This document shows positions 1 to 9,506 of a stretch of 12,959 nt of DNA, in pieces; positions within the stretch are counted from its first letter, which is position 1, and every line of letters starts with the position of its first letter. The notes below the pieces were generated by a model. It saw only the letters and a list, made by a program, of their open reading frames with translations. It ran no database searches and was not told the DNA's origin. The DNA is taken from positions 1-12,959 of the forward strand of contig CANIBQ010000120.1 of NCBI GenBank assembly GCA_947465645.1, read 5' to 3'. The translations under genes and the position numbers were made by a program. This DNA is from Acidobacteriota bacterium. GTDB lineage: Bacteria; Acidobacteriota; Vicinamibacteria; Vicinamibacterales; UBA2999.

Positions 1-1193
1 TGCGACTCCATCACGAAGCAGTGGGCATCGTCCTGGCTGAACTGCCGCACGCGCGTCAGGCCGGTGAGTACCCCGGACGCCTCGTTGCGGTGCAGCGCCG
101 TCTGCTCGTGGAGGCGGATCGGCAGGTCGCGGTAGCTGCGCACCTCGCTGCCGAAGACCAGCATGTGGCCGGGGCAGTTCATCGCCTTGAGAGCCATCTG
201 CTCGCCTTCGCCGCTCTCGACCTGGAACATGTTCTGGCGGTAGTGCTGCCAGTGGCCCGAGGTCTCCCACAGCGCCTTGTTGAAGATCAGCGGCGTCTTC
301 ACCTCGACGTAGCCGGAGGGAAAGAGGACGCCGCGCATGTAGTCGGCGAGCGTGTTCCAGAGCGTGGCGCCCTTGGCGAGCCAGAAGGTCGCGCCCGGCG
401 CCCACTGATGAAACATGAACAGCTTCTGGTCGCGGCCAATCTTGCGGTGGTCGCGCTTCTTCGCTTCTTCGAGGCGGTGCAGGTGCGCCTGCAGCTCCTT
501 ATCCGAGGCGAACGCCGTGCCGTAGACGCGTGACATCGGCTGGTTGCGCGCGTCGCCCTTCCAGTAGGCGTTCGAGGTCGTCAGCAGCTTGAACGCCTTC
601 AGCCTGCCGGTCGACGGAACGTGCGGGCCGACGCAGAAGTCGACGAAGGTGTCGCGGTCCTTGATCGTGTAGCAGGAGACCTCGCTCTGGCCCTCGGTCT
701 TCTCGTCGATCAGTTGCACCTTGAGCGGCTCGCCGCGGCTGCCGAAGAACTGCTTCGCGTCCTCGCGGGGCCAGGCCTGCCGCTGGTACGGCAAATCCTG
801 CTGCGCGAGCTCGCGCATCTTCTTTTCAATCTTGTCGAGGTCTTCGGGGACAAACGGCTTCGGGACGACGAAGTCGTAGAAGAAGCCTTCGTCGGTGGCG
901 GGGCCGATGCCGCACTGCGCGCCGGGAAAGAGGTTGGTCACCGCCGCGGCCATCAGGTGGGCGGTGCTGTGACGGAGCAGGTGGAGCGCTTCGGGACTCT
1001 CGGGTGTGACGATCTTGACCGACGCATCCTTGTCGAGCGGGAAGGACAGATCCACGAGACGATCGCCGACCACCGCCGCCAGCGCAGCCTTCGCCAGACG
1101 CGGCGAGATCGCCGACGCGACCTCGCGCACGGGCGTTCCAGCGGACACAGCGCGGCTGGATCCGTCTGGCAATGTGATCTGAACGTCGCTCAT
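1..1193 (-). CDS. thrS: Threonyl-tRNA synthetase, 3' part cut off by window edge
   Basis: Class II aminoacyl-tRNA synthetase that charges tRNA-Thr in the cytoplasm and edits mischarged Ser-tRNA. The 397 visible residues read through an N-terminal TGS domain (about 1-62), the editing domain with HSTAHLM (His75, His79) and CVGPH (Cys187, His191), then the start of the catalytic core. The core shows MNCPGHM (about 338-344, with zinc ligand Cys340) and the motif 2 region HRNEASG..GLTRVRQF..QDDAH (about 368-391). The rest of the core and the anticodon-binding domain lie beyond position 1. The ATG at 1193 is chosen because MSDVQITLPDGS is a normal TGS beginning; no clear Shine-Dalgarno is seen. It lies 34 bp downstream of tRNA-Val on the same strand, so the two may share a transcript. 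Identification is near certain. Confidence 0.97.
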   Translation of the reverse strand, partial: MSDVQITLPDGSSRAVSAGTPVREVASAISPRLAKAALAAVVGDRLVDLSFPLDKDASVKIVTPESPEALHLLRHSTAHLMAAAVTNLFPGAQCGIGPATDEGFFYDFVVPKPFVPEDLDKIEKKMRELAQQDLPYQRQAWPREDAKQFFGSRGEPLKVQLIDEKTEGQSEVSCYTIKDRDTFVDFCVGPHVPSTGRLKAFKLLTTSNAYWKGDARNQPMSRVYGTAFASDKELQAHLHRLEEAKKRDHRKIGRDQKLFMFHQWAPGATFWLAKGATLWNTLADYMRGVLFPSGYVEVKTPLIFNKALWETSGHWQHYRQNMFQVESGEGEQMALKAMNCPGHMLVFGSEVRSYRDLPIRLHEQTALHRNEASGVLTGLTRVRQFSQDDAHCFVMES

Positions 1194-1227
1194 TGGGGCA
1201 GTGCTAAAGACCAAAGACCAGAAGTAA

Positions 1228-1304
1228 TGGTAGGCGCGGGTGGACTCGAACCACTGACCTCCTCCGTGTCAGGGAGGCGCTCTAACCAACTGAGCTACGC
1301 GCCT
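1228..1304 (-). tRNA. tRNA-Val (anticodon GAC), CCA encoded
   Basis: A complete 77-nt cloverleaf on the minus strand. It has acceptor AGGCGCG paired with CGCGCCT, D-stem GCTC/GAGC, anticodon stem CCTCC/GGAGG around loop CTGACAC, variable loop AGGTC, T-loop TTCGAGT, discriminator A and a genomically encoded CCA. The anticodon GAC reads valine codons GUC and GUU. The T-stem is AGTGG/CCACC, so its outermost pair (49-65) is an A-C mismatch where other bacterial tRNA-Val have G-C or G-U. All other stems pair fully. It sits between the S41-like gene and thrS on the same strand. Confidence 0.96.
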
Positions 1305-1407: not shown

Positions 1408-2574
1408 CTACGCGGCCTTCTTCTCGGAGAGGTGCTCGAGCGCCTTCTGGAGCGTGGCGTCGACAGCCGGGGCCTCCGAACCGAATTCGATTTCGGGCTG
1501 CTCGACGTCAATGTCGGGCGCGAGGCCCTTCTCGTGGATCGGTTCGCTCGACGGGGTGAGGTAGCGGAGATAGGTCAGCCAGAGGCCGCTGCTGTCTGGC
1601 AGCTTAATCAGCTTCTGGCGGGCGGCGCGGCCGATCGTGTGCTCGCCCACCAGGTCGGCGCGCGTGTTGCCGTCGAGGGCCGCCGCGAACACTTCGGCGG
1701 CTCCCGCCGTGCCCTGGTCCACCAGCAGCACCAGCGGCGCCGTGATGGCGCCATCGGTGGCCTGCGCCGTGACGATTTCTTTCTGGTCGCCCTTCGTCAG
1801 GCGGACGGTGAGCGTGCCGCTCTTGACGAAGAGGTGCGATGCCGCGAGGCCGTGGTCCAGGTCGCCGCGGGCCGTGCCGCGCAGGTCGATGACGTAGCGC
1901 ACCGCACCGGTCCTGGCGAGCGCATCGAACGCCTGCTTGAGCTTCGCCGGAGAGTCTCGGGTGAAGTCGACCACCCGCACGTAGCCGGTGTTGGAGTTGG
2001 CCATGCGCGACGTCATCTCGGTGCCCGCGGGCAGCTCGCGGACGAGGTCGACGACGTGGGGATCGGCCGCGTTGCCGCGAATCAGCAGGATCGACACTTT
2101 CGATCCGGGCGCGCCGTGCAGGAGCCGCGATCCCTCGAACGCCGACATGTCACGCGTGGGACGGTTGTCGATCGCGCGGATGAAATCGCCGCTGCGGATG
2201 CCGGCCTTCGCGGCGGGCGAGCCGTCGCGCGCGGAAATGACGCGGAGGTAATACTGGCGCGTGAGATCGATGCCGACGTTGGCGGCGCCGGCGCTGGTGT
2301 TGCCCTCCATCGCCTTGACGAGATCCGGCGTCAGGAACGCGCTCTCGGGGTCGAGGCCGTCGGCCAGCCCTTTCATCGCGCCCTTCATCGCCTGCTTCAC
2401 GTCAACCGGCTCGACGTAGTTGTTGAGCACGAGCGAGATGACATCCTCGAACACCCGCAGGTGCTGGTAGGTGTCGTCCTTGGCGAGAGCCTGGCCCAGG
2501 TATCCGCCGAGGATGGCGAACATGATCACCGGGATCGAGATGGTCAGGACGAGCGCGCGTGTCCGGGACGTCAT
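1408..2574 (-). CDS. S41/C-terminal-processing-peptidase-like protein with PDZ domain, catalytic residues lost
   Basis: A 388-residue protein of the CtpA/Prc (MEROPS S41A) type. It has an N-terminal hydrophobic segment (about 8-28; signal anchor or uncleaved signal), the S41 N-terminal helical part with LADGLDPESAF (70-80), a PDZ domain (about 92-175, with SPAAKAGIRSGDFI) and the S41 core with VIDLRG (228-233), ending in GLAPDIDV. Active members have a Ser in a TASASE-like motif, a Lys 25 residues later in FGKG, and a Gln four further on. Here the motifs read TAGAAE and IGRAARQ. The Ser position is Gly291, the Lys position is Arg316 (spacing exactly 25) and Gln320 is kept. Both codons were read directly from the sequence. 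Family fold is certain; proteolytic activity is doubtful. It follows envC by 18 bp, with AAAGG about 10 nt before the ATG, so the two look co-transcribed. The role may be scaffolding or peptide binding in the periplasm. Confidence 0.93.
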   Translation of the reverse strand: MTSRTRALVLTISIPVIMFAILGGYLGQALAKDDTYQHLRVFEDVISLVLNNYVEPVDVKQAMKGAMKGLADGLDPESAFLTPDLVKAMEGNTSAGAANVGIDLTRQYYLRVISARDGSPAAKAGIRSGDFIRAIDNRPTRDMSAFEGSRLLHGAPGSKVSILLIRGNAADPHVVDLVRELPAGTEMTSRMANSNTGYVRVVDFTRDSPAKLKQAFDALARTGAVRYVIDLRGTARGDLDHGLAASHLFVKSGTLTVRLTKGDQKEIVTAQATDGAITAPLVLLVDQGTAGAAEVFAAALDGNTRADLVGEHTIGRAARQKLIKLPDSSGLWLTYLRYLTPSSEPIHEKGLAPDIDVEQPEIEFGSEAPAVDATLQKALEHLSEKKAA

Positions 2575-2592
2575 GTCAATGAAGCCTTTGTG

Positions 2593-3777
2593 CTAACGAG
2601 CCTTCAGCCATTGTACGGGATCGACTGAACGGCCGTCGATGCGTACCTCGAAGTACAGGGCGGGGGGGCCTGCTGGCGCCGAACCGACACGGCCCAGCTC
2701 GGTGCCGGCCTCGACAACCTCCCCTCGCTGGGCACTGATCGAGCCGAGGTAGCCGTATAAGGTGTAGTTGTTGCCGCCGTGGTCGAGAATCACGAGGTTC
2801 CCAAAGCCGCTGAATGCATCCGAGTACGACACCGTGCCCGTATGGACAGCCTGGACGGGGGTGCCTTCAGCGGCGGCGATCTCGATACCATTCCGCAGGG
2901 TGGCCGACCCCGGCCGTGACGGTTGGCCAAACCGGCCCGCGATCCGGCCGGTGGCGGGCCAGTCGAGGGCGCCGCGGAACGGCGCCAGGGGCACCGCGAC
3001 CTGCTCCACCGGACGCCCCGCCGCCAGGTTGGCGACCTGCTGCTGAAGCCGCTCCGAGGCCACCTGCAGCTCGCCGGCCAACTGCGCGTTGAGATCCCGC
3101 CGCCTGTCAATCTGCGCGATCAGGGCATTGCGCGCCGCGACGGCGCGATCGGCCGCCAGGCGGGCCTGGCGCACCTCGGCCTCGTGCGCCTGCAGGTCGC
3201 GCACCTTCAACTCCAGCGCGGTCCGCTCGTCGCGCACAGCCGCAAGCGTCCGGCGGTGCTCCTCGACGCGCTGTTCGTTGATGCGCGCGAGGGCCGCGAC
3301 GGCGCGTGTCGCCCGGCCGAACTCACGCACGCCGCCGACACCAAACAGCAGGCGGGCGTATCCGGCAGGGCCACGTTTGTACACGTCCACCATCTGGGCC
3401 TTGAGCGTGGGCAACTGCGCCACGCGCTGCTGCTCGAGGCCCGTGAGCCGGTCGCTGACCTGCTGGACGGCCGCCTGGCCCGCCGCGACGTCGGCCTCCG
3501 CTTGTGTCAGCCGCTCGATCTGCAGATCGCGATCGATCTCGAGCGTGCGGAGATCGCCCACCAGCGTCCGTGCTTCGCCCGCCAGCCGATCGGCTTCGCG
3601 CTGCAGGGAGACGATGCGGTAGTTGACCCGGCGATTGACCACGTCGGCCGGCGACCGGTCGGGCGCCTGCGCCGAGAGCGCGGTGGCCGTCAGCAGGAAG
3701 ATCAGCAATCGCGATGCGGCGCGGACCTTTACCCCTCGACTGCGCTCGGGGCAGGCGGTCCGCGGCGTGTTTTTCAC
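2593..3777 (-). CDS. envC: EnvC-like murein hydrolase activator (coiled coil plus degenerate LytM/M23 domain)
   Basis: A 394-residue exported protein. The signal peptide has a long basic n-region and a hydrophobic core LLIFLLTATALSA (about 24-36). A long coiled coil rich in Leu, Gln, Glu and Arg follows (about 45-250), then a C-terminal LytM/M23 fold (about 268-394) with GRIAGRFG, EGTPVQAVHTG and FGNLVILDHG. M23 enzymes bind zinc through HxxxD and HxH; here those sites read R295-N-G-I-E299 and A373-L-Y375, and the usual YAHL is YGYL. This is the pattern of E. coli EnvC (LYGY, SLYFE), whose LytM domain is not a hydrolase but activates the septal amidases AmiA/AmiB. An amidase-activating role in daughter-cell separation is therefore inferred. 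The start is GTG at 3777, chosen because the next candidate (TTG, codon 24) would remove the basic n-region. Codons 9-16 come from a palindromic repeat. Confidence 0.9.
   Translation of the reverse strand: MKNTPRTACPERSRGVKVRAASRLLIFLLTATALSAQAPDRSPADVVNRRVNYRIVSLQREADRLAGEARTLVGDLRTLEIDRDLQIERLTQAEADVAAGQAAVQQVSDRLTGLEQQRVAQLPTLKAQMVDVYKRGPAGYARLLFGVGGVREFGRATRAVAALARINEQRVEEHRRTLAAVRDERTALELKVRDLQAHEAEVRQARLAADRAVAARNALIAQIDRRRDLNAQLAGELQVASERLQQQVANLAAGRPVEQVAVPLAPFRGALDWPATGRIAGRFGQPSRPGSATLRNGIEIAAAEGTPVQAVHTGTVSYSDAFSGFGNLVILDHGGNNYTLYGYLGSISAQRGEVVEAGTELGRVGSAPAGPPALYFEVRIDGRSVDPVQWLKAR
3732..3753. repeat. Short palindromic repeat inside the envC signal-peptide region
   Basis: CCCCTCGACTGCGCTCGGGG plus CA forms a hairpin: CCC-CGA pairs with TCG-GGG around loop CTGCGC, with a one-base T bulge. 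On the minus strand it is translated as roughly CPERSRGV in the n-region of EnvC, between MKNTPR and KVRAAS. The same hairpin and its 'PERSR' peptide resemble a short element scattered through many environmental genomes; that resemblance is from memory. Family membership needs a genome-wide count. Confidence 0.65.
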
Positions 3778-3783
3778 AGGGCT

Positions 3784-3791
3784 AGTATAAA
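3784..3791. promoter_or_regulatory. Possible overlapping divergent -10 elements between envC and ruvX
   Basis: The 23-bp gap between the divergent GTG starts of envC (3777) and ruvX (3801) contains CTAGTATAAAG. Read leftwards it gives TATACT (3789 to 3784); read rightwards it gives TATAAA (3786-3791). Either would place the transcription start within a few bases of the GTG codon, consistent with leaderless or near-leaderless transcripts, and neither gene shows a Shine-Dalgarno. No good -35 hexamer is seen for either direction, so this is weak. Confidence 0.3.
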
Positions 3792-3800
3792 GTCAGACGA

Positions 3801-4265
3801 GTGCGCATCGTGGGCCTCGATGTAGGCGAGAAACGCATCGGCATCGCCATCAGCGACGCCACGGCCACCCTGGCCAGGCCGGTCGGGGTGCTCAAGGCGG
3901 CCGGGCTCTCGACGAGCGCCATCACCATAGTCGCCGACGAAATTGCGCGGCTCAGCGCCGAAGACGATCCGGTCTCGTCCATCATCGTCGGCCTTCCCAG
4001 GCGGCTCGACGGTTCTCCCAACGACATGACACCGCGCGTCGAACGGTTTGCGGCCCACCTCGGCACACGCACCGGACTGCCGGTCGTGCTGCAGGACGAG
4101 CGGCTCACGAGCCGCGAAGCGGAAAGCCGGCTGGCCGTCCGCGAGAAAGACTGGCGCGTGCGGAAAGAGCGCCTCGATGCCGCGGCGGCGGCGATCATCC
4201 TGCAGGATTATCTCGACACCCGTCCCGGCCGTCCCGTGCTGATCGCGGACGAGCCCGAGTTCTGA
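3801..4265 (+). CDS. ruvX: YqgF/RuvX family RNase H-like nuclease (pre-16S rRNA processing / putative Holliday junction resolvase)
   Basis: A 154-residue RNase H-fold protein of normal family length. It has GLDVGEKRIGIAISD (5-19) carrying Asp7, IIVGLPRRLDGS (61-72), DERLTS (99-104) carrying Glu100, and RLDAAAAAIILQDYLD (124-139) carrying Asp126. These three acidic residues match the metal-binding set of the family. E. coli YqgF is known for maturing the 5' end of 16S rRNA; the Holliday-junction role is older and less secure. The start is GTG at 3801, immediately giving MRIVGLDVG. Its TGA shares a base with the ATG of mltG, the common ruvX-mltG arrangement, so the two are translationally coupled. 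Confidence 0.95.
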   Translation: MRIVGLDVGEKRIGIAISDATATLARPVGVLKAAGLSTSAITIVADEIARLSAEDDPVSSIIVGLPRRLDGSPNDMTPRVERFAAHLGTRTGLPVVLQDERLTSREAESRLAVREKDWRVRKERLDAAAAAIILQDYLDTRPGRPVLIADEPEF

Positions 4266-5317
4266 TGCGCAAAGCCGTCATCACCGTTGTGATCATCATG
4301 GTTGTGCTGGGCGCGGCCGCCGGGCTCGTCGGCTTCCGCGTGTGGGATCGGATGCACACCCCGTACAAGGGATACGCGCGAGCGGAGCAATTCGTCGACA
4401 TCCCGTCAGGCGTGTCGAGCAACGCCATCGGACGCCTGCTCGTGGAGGCCGGAGTGATCGAGAACGATCTTGCCTTCCGTGCCGCGCTCCGCTGGACTGG
4501 CCGTGGCCAGAGCTTGAAGGCTGGCGAGTACCGCTTCGATCGTCCGATGAGCGCCGTGGACGTCATCGAGGTGATCGCGCGCGGCGACGCGTATGCGCGG
4601 CGCATCACGTTTCCCGAAGGCTTGACGATCCTCGACATGGCGCGGCTGTACGAGTCACGCGGATTCGGTTCCGCGCGCGACTTCACCCAGGCGGCCGCCG
4701 ACGCCTCGGTCGTCAAGGACATCGATCCGGCCGCGACCGATCTCGAGGGATACCTGTTTCCCGACACCTACGCATTGCCACGTCGGACGCCGGCGTCACG
4801 CCTCGTCGCGGAGATGCTCGGACGCTTTCGCGCCACCTACACCGATGACCTCCGCAGCCGTGCCGAGGCCCAGGGGTTGACGACGCGCGAGTTGGTGACG
4901 CTGGCGTCGGTCATCGAAAAGGAAACTGGAGCCGGCGAAGAGCGTCCGCTCGTGGCGGCCGTCTATACGAACCGCCTCCGGATCGGGATGGGACTCCAGG
5001 CCGATCCAACCGTCGTCTATGCGCTGCTGAAGGCGGGGAAGTACGACGGCAATATCCGCCGCGGGGACCTGGCAATCGACTCGCCGTACAACACCTATAA
5101 GTACCGCGGCCTGCCTCCCGGCCCGATCGCGTCGCCCGGGAAGGCCTCGCTCGAAGCCGCCGTCAGCCCGGCCGACGTCCCCTACCTGTACTTCGTCAGC
5201 CGCAACGACGGCACGCACGCGTTCGCCACGACACTAAGCGAACACAACGCCAACGTCAGGAAATTCCAGGTCCAGTTCTTCAGGGACGCGAGAGCCCGCG
5301 AGCAGTCTTCACGCTAA
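4265..5317 (+). CDS. mltG: Endolytic murein transglycosylase MltG (YceG-like)
   Basis: A 350-residue membrane-anchored lytic transglycosylase that cuts nascent glycan strands and so helps set their length. It has one N-terminal transmembrane helix (about 4-26), then a LysM-like part (about 40-108, with IPSGVSS.AIGRLLVEAGVI and LKAGEYRF), then the YceG catalytic domain. Visible motifs are FPEGLTI, LEGYLFPDTY (160-169), LASVIEKET (213-221) with the catalytic Glu218, LQADPTVVYAL, and SPYNTYKYRGLPPGPIASPG (273-292). Length and motif order are complete. It starts by a one-base overlap with ruvX and ends 5 bp before the convergent stop of nadK. Confidence 0.97.
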   Translation: MRKAVITVVIIMVVLGAAAGLVGFRVWDRMHTPYKGYARAEQFVDIPSGVSSNAIGRLLVEAGVIENDLAFRAALRWTGRGQSLKAGEYRFDRPMSAVDVIEVIARGDAYARRITFPEGLTILDMARLYESRGFGSARDFTQAAADASVVKDIDPAATDLEGYLFPDTYALPRRTPASRLVAEMLGRFRATYTDDLRSRAEAQGLTTRELVTLASVIEKETGAGEERPLVAAVYTNRLRIGMGLQADPTVVYALLKAGKYDGNIRRGDLAIDSPYNTYKYRGLPPGPIASPGKASLEAAVSPADVPYLYFVSRNDGTHAFATTLSEHNANVRKFQVQFFRDARAREQSSR

Positions 5318-8059: not shown

Positions 8060-8136
8060 GTTGCCAGTTGCCAGTTGCCAGTTGCCAGTTGCCAGTTGTC
8101 AGTTGTCAGTTGTCGGTTGTCAGTTGTCGGTTGTCA
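8060..8136. repeat. Heptanucleotide tandem repeat, 11 units
   Basis: Eleven consecutive 7-bp units on the plus strand: five GTTGCCA, then GTTGTCA, GTTGTCA, GTTGTCG, GTTGTCA, GTTGTCG and GTTGTCA. On the transcribed strand the units are TGGCAAC, TGACAAC and CGACAAC. Four and a half units form the last codons and stop of xseA; the rest fill the gap before xseB, ending two bases before its ATG. No spacers are present, so it is not CRISPR. Because 7 is not a multiple of 3, a change in copy number would alter the end of XseA and the gap length. It resembles the short tandem heptamers (STRR) of cyanobacteria in kind. Confidence 0.97.
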
Positions 8137-9506
8137 GCGTCGGGGCTGGAACCTGTGACATCACAATCCAGTTCGCCTCGCTCAACCTTCACATGGACGC
8201 GTTCGCCAAGCGATACCTTCGACGCGTCGCGAATGATCATCGTGTGGTCCGCGTTCCAGCAGACGGCATAGCCACGCCCGAGCACGGCGAGTGGGCTGAG
8301 CGCCTCGAGCCTGGCGGCGGTGCCGCGCAGCCTCGCGTCGGCTGAATGACGCGTGCGGGTGAGAGCCGCGCCAAGCCGGCTGTCGGCGGCCACCAGCCGG
8401 CTGCGGACGCCGCCGAGCCGGACGCGGATGTCGAAGGTGTCGAGCTTTCTTCGCATCGCCTGGTACATCCGTCCGCGCGCGGCGAGCTGCGAGAGCAACG
8501 CGCGGCCGGGACGGGCGTCGAGCGCCCGCAGACGCGATTCGAGGCGGTGCAGGCGGGTCTGCATGCCGCTGGTCACGCCGTGCGCGAGGCGATCGATGCG
8601 CGCGTAGAAGTCGTCCTTGCGCGAGACCACCATTTCGGCGGCCGCCGACGGCGTGGGCGCCCGAAGGTCTGCGACGAAGTCCGCGATCGTCACGTCGGTT
8701 TCGTGTCCAACCGCGGAGATCGTCGGCACCGGACAGCCGGCAATCGCCCGTGCCACGACCTCCTCGTTGAAGGCCCACAGGTCTTCGATCGAGCCGCCGC
8801 CGCGGCCGACAATGACCACGTCTACCCCGGGGACCTTGCCGATCGCGCTCAAGGCACGCGCGATGTCGAGCGCCGAGCCTTCTCCCTGCACGCGCGTCGG
8901 ACGGATGATGAGGTGCGCATTCGGATACCGCCGACGCAGTACCTGGATGATGTCGCGCACCGCCGCGCCATCGAGAGAGGTGACGATGCCGATCTTGCGA
9001 GGCAGTGCGGGCAGCGGACGCTTTCGACGCGGGTCGAACAGGCCCTCCGCCGAGAGGCGCTGCTTGAGCTGTTCGAATGCCAGTTGCAGCGCGCCGAGGC
9101 CCTCGGGCTCGAGATGCTCGCAGACGATCTGGTACTCGCCCTTCGGGTCGTACACGCTCACCCGTCCGCGCGCGACGACGCGGAGCCCGTCCTGCGGCTT
9201 GAAGCGGAGGTAGCGCAGCGCGGAGCGGAACATCACGCCCTTGATCTGCGCGGCCTCGTCTTTGAGCGTGAAGTACAGGTGGCCGGTGTTCCACACGCGG
9301 CAGTTCGACAGCTCGCCCTCGACCCAGACCTCGACGAACCGCTCCTCGAGCAGCGCGCGAATATCGGCCGTCAGCTCCGCTACGCTGAAGACTCGCCGCG
9401 TGGCCGGGGTCTTCGCGGCCGGCTGCGGCTCCTCAGCCTCGGGCTTGCCCACCGAAGCTTCAGCGGAGGTGGGTTCCTCGAACGGCAGGTCGAAGAGAGA
9501 GGTCAT
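8106..9506 (-). CDS. xseA: Exodeoxyribonuclease VII large subunit
   Basis: The 466-residue catalytic subunit of exonuclease VII. The OB-fold DNA-binding domain (about 38-135) has FSVAELT, VWVEGELSN and GHLYFTLKD. The catalytic domain has IGIVTSLDGAAVRDI (172-186), RPTRVQGEGS, VIVGRGGGSIEDLWAFNEE (231-249) and ISAVGHETDVTIADFVADLR (263-282). A long coiled-coil arm (about 295-400) and SPLAVLGRGYA follow. Two parts look acquired. Residues about 12-21 come from a palindromic repeat, and the last nine residues (DNRQLTTDN) are translated heptamer repeat, extending the protein past the usual end near the Cys-Asp-Val strand. The ATG at 9506 lies 47 bp inside ymdB. A GTG at codon 19 is an alternative start, but MTSLFDLPFEE looks like a genuine N-terminus. 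Confidence 0.95.
   Translation of the reverse strand: MTSLFDLPFEEPTSAEASVGKPEAEEPQPAAKTPATRRVFSVAELTADIRALLEERFVEVWVEGELSNCRVWNTGHLYFTLKDEAAQIKGVMFRSALRYLRFKPQDGLRVVARGRVSVYDPKGEYQIVCEHLEPEGLGALQLAFEQLKQRLSAEGLFDPRRKRPLPALPRKIGIVTSLDGAAVRDIIQVLRRRYPNAHLIIRPTRVQGEGSALDIARALSAIGKVPGVDVVIVGRGGGSIEDLWAFNEEVVARAIAGCPVPTISAVGHETDVTIADFVADLRAPTPSAAAEMVVSRKDDFYARIDRLAHGVTSGMQTRLHRLESRLRALDARPGRALLSQLAARGRMYQAMRRKLDTFDIRVRLGGVRSRLVAADSRLGAALTRTRHSADARLRGTAARLEALSPLAVLGRGYAVCWNADHTMIIRDASKVSLGERVHVKVERGELDCDVTGSSPDADNRQLTTDN
9448..9473. repeat. 26-bp palindromic repeat at the ymdB/xseA overlap
   Basis: Terminal arms CCCACC (9448-9453) and GGTGGG (9468-9473) enclose the self-complementary octamer GAAGCTTC, giving a hairpin-capable element. 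On the minus strand it is read in two frames. In xseA it encodes about PTSAEASVG in the variable N-terminus; in ymdB it encodes the final HLR and the TGA stop. Similar short palindromes inserted in coding sequence are known, for example Rickettsia palindromic elements; whether this is a multi-copy family here cannot be told from one copy. Confidence 0.6.

Follow-up and report, generated by a model that had tools for sequence, protein, structure and literature searches.

CtpB of Bacillus subtilis and the D1 protease of plants and algae, two carboxyl-terminal processing proteases of family S41, are Ser-Lys proteases. CtpA of Pseudomonas aeruginosa (PaCtpA), which belongs to S41A, carries Ser302, Lys327 and His84 and is proteolytic together with LbcA; its activity in vivo is abolished by the substitutions S302A and K327A, and suffers little from Q331A and moderately from H84A (PMC11021448). 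Its gene is part of an envC-ctpA-PA5135 operon (PMC12569750), and the same order, an EnvC gene followed by an S41 gene, is found in the window analyzed here, a stretch of 12,959 nucleotides from an Acidobacteriota bacterium (contig CANIBQ010000120.1 of assembly GCA_947465645.1). The short S41 protein encoded in this window shares the fold, the PDZ domain and the active-site Gln of PaCtpA, but presents Gly, Arg and Glu where the enzyme has Ser, Lys and His; it differs from CtpB and the D1 protease likewise, as the Ser-Lys dyad is theirs. There is little doubt in our view that it is a conserved pseudoprotease.

The gene, at 1408..2574 on the minus strand, is an open reading frame (ORF) for 388 amino acids (aa) without an internal stop. 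The S41 core comprises residues 195 to 357 (1504..1992, minus strand; Pfam PF03572, 8.8e-33), and a PDZ domain occupies residues 100 to 172, with rounded limits (2059..2277, minus strand), as indicated by the Pfam matches PDZ_6 (residues 112 to 166, 5.9e-12) and PDZ_2 (residues 102 to 169). Codons 1 to 31 (2482..2574, minus strand) are predicted from hydropathy to encode an N-terminal hydrophobic segment, either a signal or an anchor. Its best 17-residue mean hydropathy is 2.5, and values above 1.6 are reached in all 186 family members that are long enough. The predicted structure shows a confident CtpA fold, with the N-terminal helices and the C-terminal helix present. Thus, the S41 fold with an inserted PDZ domain that characterizes S41A is present, whereas the Ser nucleophile and Lys base that also characterize it are replaced by Gly291 and Arg316.

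In the alignment with PaCtpA, GTAGAAEV pairs with GSASAAEI and TIGRAARQ with SFGKGSVQ. This places Gly291 (1702..1704, minus strand) at the nucleophile Ser302, Arg316 (1627..1629, minus strand) at the general base Lys327, and the retained Gln320 (1615..1617, minus strand) at Gln331, with spacings of 25 and 4 residues that are the same as in the enzyme. A hand count along this alignment puts Glu at codon 77 (2344..2346, minus strand), where PaCtpA has His84. Histidine occupies this position in 19/19 longer, intact S41 paralogues of Acidobacteriota, versus 4 of 188 short proteins. The N-P-G-G motif, which contributes to the oxyanion hole and is found in 12/12 sequences of the active paralogue, reads T-A-R-G in the window protein. 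An earlier note on this DNA had proposed the replacement of the dyad at a spacing of 25 residues with an intact Gln320, and the residue alignment bears this out. Its statement that the fold-defining motifs are intact holds for VIDLRG and GLAPDIDV, which show the fold, but not for the segment directly after VIDLRG, which is degenerate. The NCBIfam model prc (TIGR00225) gives the window protein 192.1 bits, below the cut-off of 218.6, and the sole intact long paralogue tested, L031, passes with 294.5 bits. The dyad is not all that this score reflects, since a short protein in which the dyad is present, L200, also falls below the cut-off with 208.3 bits.

The altered active site is conserved. Among the best 120 of 7608 homologues, with the query counted among the 120, 119 have Gly and one has Ala at position 291, and Arg316 and Gln320 are found in 120/120. 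Between the window gene and that of its nearest DNA relative, L001, the synonymous divergence (dS) is 0.50 and the nonsynonymous divergence (dN) 0.069, a dN/dS ratio of 0.138; across the 40 closest of 123 pairs the ratio is 0.07 to 0.32. The gene is therefore maintained by selection, as expected of a pseudoenzyme, and the conservation, the dN/dS and the predicted fold together support the view of the earlier note that this is a selected pseudoprotease with intact structure and not a decaying gene. In its PDZ domain the dead protein is as conserved as the active paralogue, whereas its S41 core is far less conserved.

The feature is broader than the earlier note saw. In the class of genome G003, presumably Vicinamibacteria, 191 of 193 genomes match at an E value of 1e-20 or better. 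When the weak matchers were searched again, 11 genomes had the long S41 protein only and 2 had neither, which leaves about 180 of the 193 with a match to the short family, some of them fragments. From this class 119 loci were fetched and 115 counted. The rows dropped were L055 (active-site residues missing in the alignment), L072 (partial, Gly/Arg), L114 (identical to L113) and L081 (Cys/Arg, narrowly below the score cut). Position 291 in the 115 class members is Gly in 89, Cys in 7, Gln in 5, Ser and Ala in 4 each, Arg and Asn in 2 each, and Tyr and Asp in 1 each; position 316 is Arg in 100, Leu in 10, Ser in 3, and Gln and Ile in 1 each, with no Lys. In the subgroup formed by loci L074 to L081, the Ser, Lys and Gln of the active site are replaced by Cys, Arg and Pro, respectively, and in the seven of them that were tabulated a MltG-like gene lies downstream and co-directional.

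Beyond the class, we read 40 of the best-scoring loci from genomes outside the 193, plus 33 short loci from 44 further genomes picked mostly for lower scores. Of 396 genomes drawn from across the phylum, 385 have a match to the family profile at 1e-40, through either S41 protein. Among the 188 short S41 proteins from Acidobacteriota genomes, Ser occurs in eight, Lys in three, and both together in one (L200), and the residues at the Lys position include R, L, E, D, S, M, A and V. All seven long proteins that were read along with these 188 carry Ser and Lys. Duplicates (L012 to L022 and L143 to L172) were left uncounted, and L213 to L242 received no separate analysis; in genomes with three or four S41 matches the copies were read in part, as were the short members of the searched genomes. 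Retrieval by similarity to dead proteins biases this sampling, although the same searches still returned the active long S41 proteins. Across the sampled Acidobacteriota, this is the same protein, which has lost the Ser-Lys dyad and further active-site positions, retains the predicted fold and the PDZ domain, and is under selection.

A quick tree built without the active-site columns separates the short proteins from the long active ones, as a single long-stemmed clade with a support of 100 in the SH-like approximate likelihood ratio test (SH-aLRT). Four long rows of this tree were flagged, and two of the four were joined. Relatives with both Ser and Lys, which the earlier note had named as a sign of sequence error or recent loss, number 0 of the 120 close homologues and 0 of the 115 class members; the one relative that has both, L200 (4539-5804, minus strand), is distant. 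It is the sole short member read with Ser, Lys and Gln, has an N-A-G-G motif and lies beside an EnvC gene, and judged by these residues it may be an active survivor. It groups with L250 (Gly/Lys) inside the short clade, where the backbone is unresolved. L200 may thus be a relic of the ancestral state, in which case the dyad was lost several times, or else an exception, and the backbone does not decide between the two.

The gene 18 bp upstream of the pseudoprotease (2593..3777, minus strand) encodes a protein of the M23 (LytM) type (Pfam PF01551) that we take to be EnvC. At what are presumably the M23 metal-ligand positions this protein has N/E/Y by alignment, and several loci outside the class have H/D/H; such degeneracy would be like that of amidase activators. 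With N/E/Y in the EnvC-like protein beside a dead S41 protein, the operon encodes two enzyme-derived proteins without catalytic residues. Divergent from this pair are two ORFs on the plus strand that we assume to encode RuvX/YqgF (3801..4265) and the endolytic transglycosylase MltG (4265..5317). On the other side lie a tRNA-Val (gac) gene (1228..1304, minus strand; ARAGORN) and, downstream of it, a partial ORF that is presumably ThrS (3..1214, minus strand). A scan for promoters and terminators found a single promoter-like match, against 0.2 expected, which lies within the end of the EnvC gene, and a single terminator-like match, on the opposite strand and at chance level. Farther along the window, at 8060-8137, a 7-base tandem unit is repeated in 11 copies at the 3' end of an XseA-like ORF.

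This neighborhood recurs in the class. Where at least 3.5 kb upstream is available, a divergent MltG gene is found in 56/56 loci, RuvX in 54/56 and a co-directional EnvC gene in 34/56; where 2.5 kb downstream is available, ThrS follows in 59 of 62. Upstream of EnvC, L083 has a gene (2462-4570, plus strand) whose product contains a PF01663 domain (type I phosphodiesterase/nucleotide pyrophosphatase), and genes related to it stand before EnvC at many further loci. A different clade comprises 22 loci, and in 21 of these the pseudoprotease gene is followed co-directionally by a gene for a class A penicillin-binding protein (PBP), in 16 of them within 181 bp (for example L186:1706-4306, with similar genes in 20 further loci), the sole locus of the clade without it being L180. 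Fourteen of these loci are in the tree, and each of the 8 left out shares 72% identity or more with one of the rows that the clade has there. The two PBPs that were scanned contain PF00912 with PF00905.

The link to EnvC suggested by the earlier note is thus real but incomplete, as the gene persists where EnvC was not found. In a survey of 26 pseudoprotease-carrying genomes, with and without EnvC at the locus, full-length EnvC was present in 10, and the FtsX extracellular domain in exactly these 10. In one further genome, G002, EnvC is split in two and FtsX gave no match. Single absences are weak in incomplete metagenome-derived genomes, and it is the agreement of the two lists that carries the weight: full-length EnvC and FtsX are present or missing together in 25/26 genomes, G002 being the exception, which suggests a joint loss of FtsEX-EnvC in several acidobacterial lineages. 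Amidase_3 is found in 25 of the 26.

Because the catalytic residues are lost, selection keeps the gene and cell-wall genes usually lie near it, the product is probably a binding protein rather than an enzyme. We favor, at a probability of about 0.55, a role as a periplasmic PDZ adaptor of peptidoglycan enzymes. In this model, a dead S41 protein of the CtpA branch would be exported, with its N-terminal hydrophobic segment as the site of anchoring or of processing; the PDZ domain, and perhaps the emptied substrate groove as well, would hold C-terminal or unfolded segments of periplasmic partners, and in this way recruit, shield or position peptidoglycan enzymes. The partners would probably be lineage specific, with EnvC together with FtsEX and amidases, plus MltG, as candidates in the class of the window, and the class A PBP in the other large clade. 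We infer that the protein is exported to the periplasm, that it no longer cleaves proteins, and that it recruits or shields peptidoglycan enzymes through its PDZ domain. The conservation of this domain and the cell-wall neighbors suggest that it is perhaps a PDZ scaffold. More tentatively, and with odds somewhat against it, the family may derive from an ancient CtpA duplicate that ceased to be proteolytic early in the history of Acidobacteriota and turned into a general PDZ hub for cell-wall growth in the periplasm, a pseudoprotease characteristic of the phylum whose partners (EnvC-FtsEX, MltG and class A PBP) were exchanged between lineages.

Several observations weigh against the adaptor role or limit its reach. 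The candidate partners are proposed from gene linkage, which does not prove interaction, and the MltG gene is divergent and thereby outside the pseudoprotease operon. Among the non-class loci with 3.5 kb upstream, EnvC and RuvX/MltG are both missing upstream in 20/33 of one set and 9/29 of a second; of the 29 loci in the two sets that lack them, 18 have the class A PBP instead, and 11 have none of EnvC, RuvX/MltG and PBP. Neither EnvC nor FtsX was found in 15 of the 26 surveyed genomes, which have M23 domains only; EnvC therefore cannot be the sole partner, and it was rejected as such. The loop region of the PDZ domain is unlike that of the active paralogue. The gene is not universal in the class, given the 13 genomes noted above (11 with the long S41 protein only and 2 with neither), unless these genomes are incomplete, and in G014 the short S41 match is split over two frames (G014:C94:5767-6788), possibly a broken copy or an assembly fault. 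Finally, not every member of the family need be dead, since L200 keeps Ser, Lys, Gln and N-A-G-G.

The best placed of the other explanations is that the protein regulates the active long CtpA paralogue, either through mixed oligomers or by feeding or withholding substrates, as do other pseudoenzymes with active sisters. The earlier note had asked for a second, intact S41 gene, and both proteins are indeed present in all 11 genomes reached from loci L001 to L011, where the longer one is 30 to 33% identical to the window protein and carries Ser and Lys in 11/11. All 19 long paralogues that were read, with open frames of 533 to 612 aa, have Ser, Lys, Gln and His intact. The N-terminal helices and the C-terminal helix, which serve oligomerization in PaCtpA, are retained in the model of the short protein. 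However, the two genes are on separate contigs in all 11 genomes and thus show no linkage, and the N-terminal part is less conserved in the dead protein than in the active paralogue (0.722 versus 0.862). We regard this explanation as possible but rather unlikely.

Less probable is a non-protease ligand binder that would hold a small hydrophobic molecule or a glycan strand, in the manner of IRBP, an animal retinoid-binding protein with the S41 fold and no protease role. IRBP has no PDZ domain and is more distant in structure. Slightly less probable again is that the protein is still an enzyme, with a moved or altered site (for example at Thr289, or at Cys in one subgroup) or with a site completed by a partner. 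Thr289 is present in 92% of the 108 class members examined for it and in 93% of the 188 short proteins, and 7 of the 115 class members, plus L081, combine Cys with Arg. Active enzymes, however, have Ser at position 289 already, and the S302A form of PaCtpA is inactive (PMC11021448) though that Ser stays in its sequence (7rqh). A search of the class for a migrated dyad, another Ser/Lys pair being what the earlier note had named as counterevidence, found no Lys or Cys that reaches 85% conservation, and a single His (347, 85%) that does so in the class but not over all 188 short proteins; a moved site was rejected for want of conserved candidate residues in the class, and the variety of residues at the Lys position also speaks against retained catalysis. 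A sequencing or assembly artefact or a recent pseudogene, for which nothing speaks in the window and only the split match of G014 elsewhere, is refuted here by the conservation over 120 homologues, the purifying selection and the same loss in many separate genomes.

The annotation "carboxyl-terminal processing protease" that many close homologues carry probably names the wrong kind of protein. A catalytically dead form of a protease that regulates the cell wall, retained near peptidoglycan genes throughout the sampled phylum, would be a natural test of a non-cutting role of CtpA, and offers a concrete entry into the cell-wall growth of acidobacteria. Among the literature matches listed, with most subscription journals outside their scope, there was no report of a CtpA-type pseudoprotease or of a dead CtpA clade on the scale of a phylum. 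By the definition of a pseudoenzyme as a protein in which a conserved catalytic motif is absent by sequence (PMC10211241), the window protein is one, and 187 of the 188 short members lack the Ser-Lys pair. We class it as a pseudoprotease derived from the CtpA family, because its fold is that of CtpA and the defining catalytic residues are absent. The long acidobacterial paralogue is likewise an S41 protein with a PDZ domain, but has Ser, Lys, Gln and His intact in a longer frame. CspC of Clostridioides difficile is likewise a serine pseudoprotease from a bacterium, and the pathway in which it acts leads to breakdown of the cortex, a cell-wall structure, but it has a subtilisin-like fold and acts in spore germination. 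Bacterial pseudoproteases of other folds, such as CspC, and an S41 fold without proteolysis, in IRBP, are known already.
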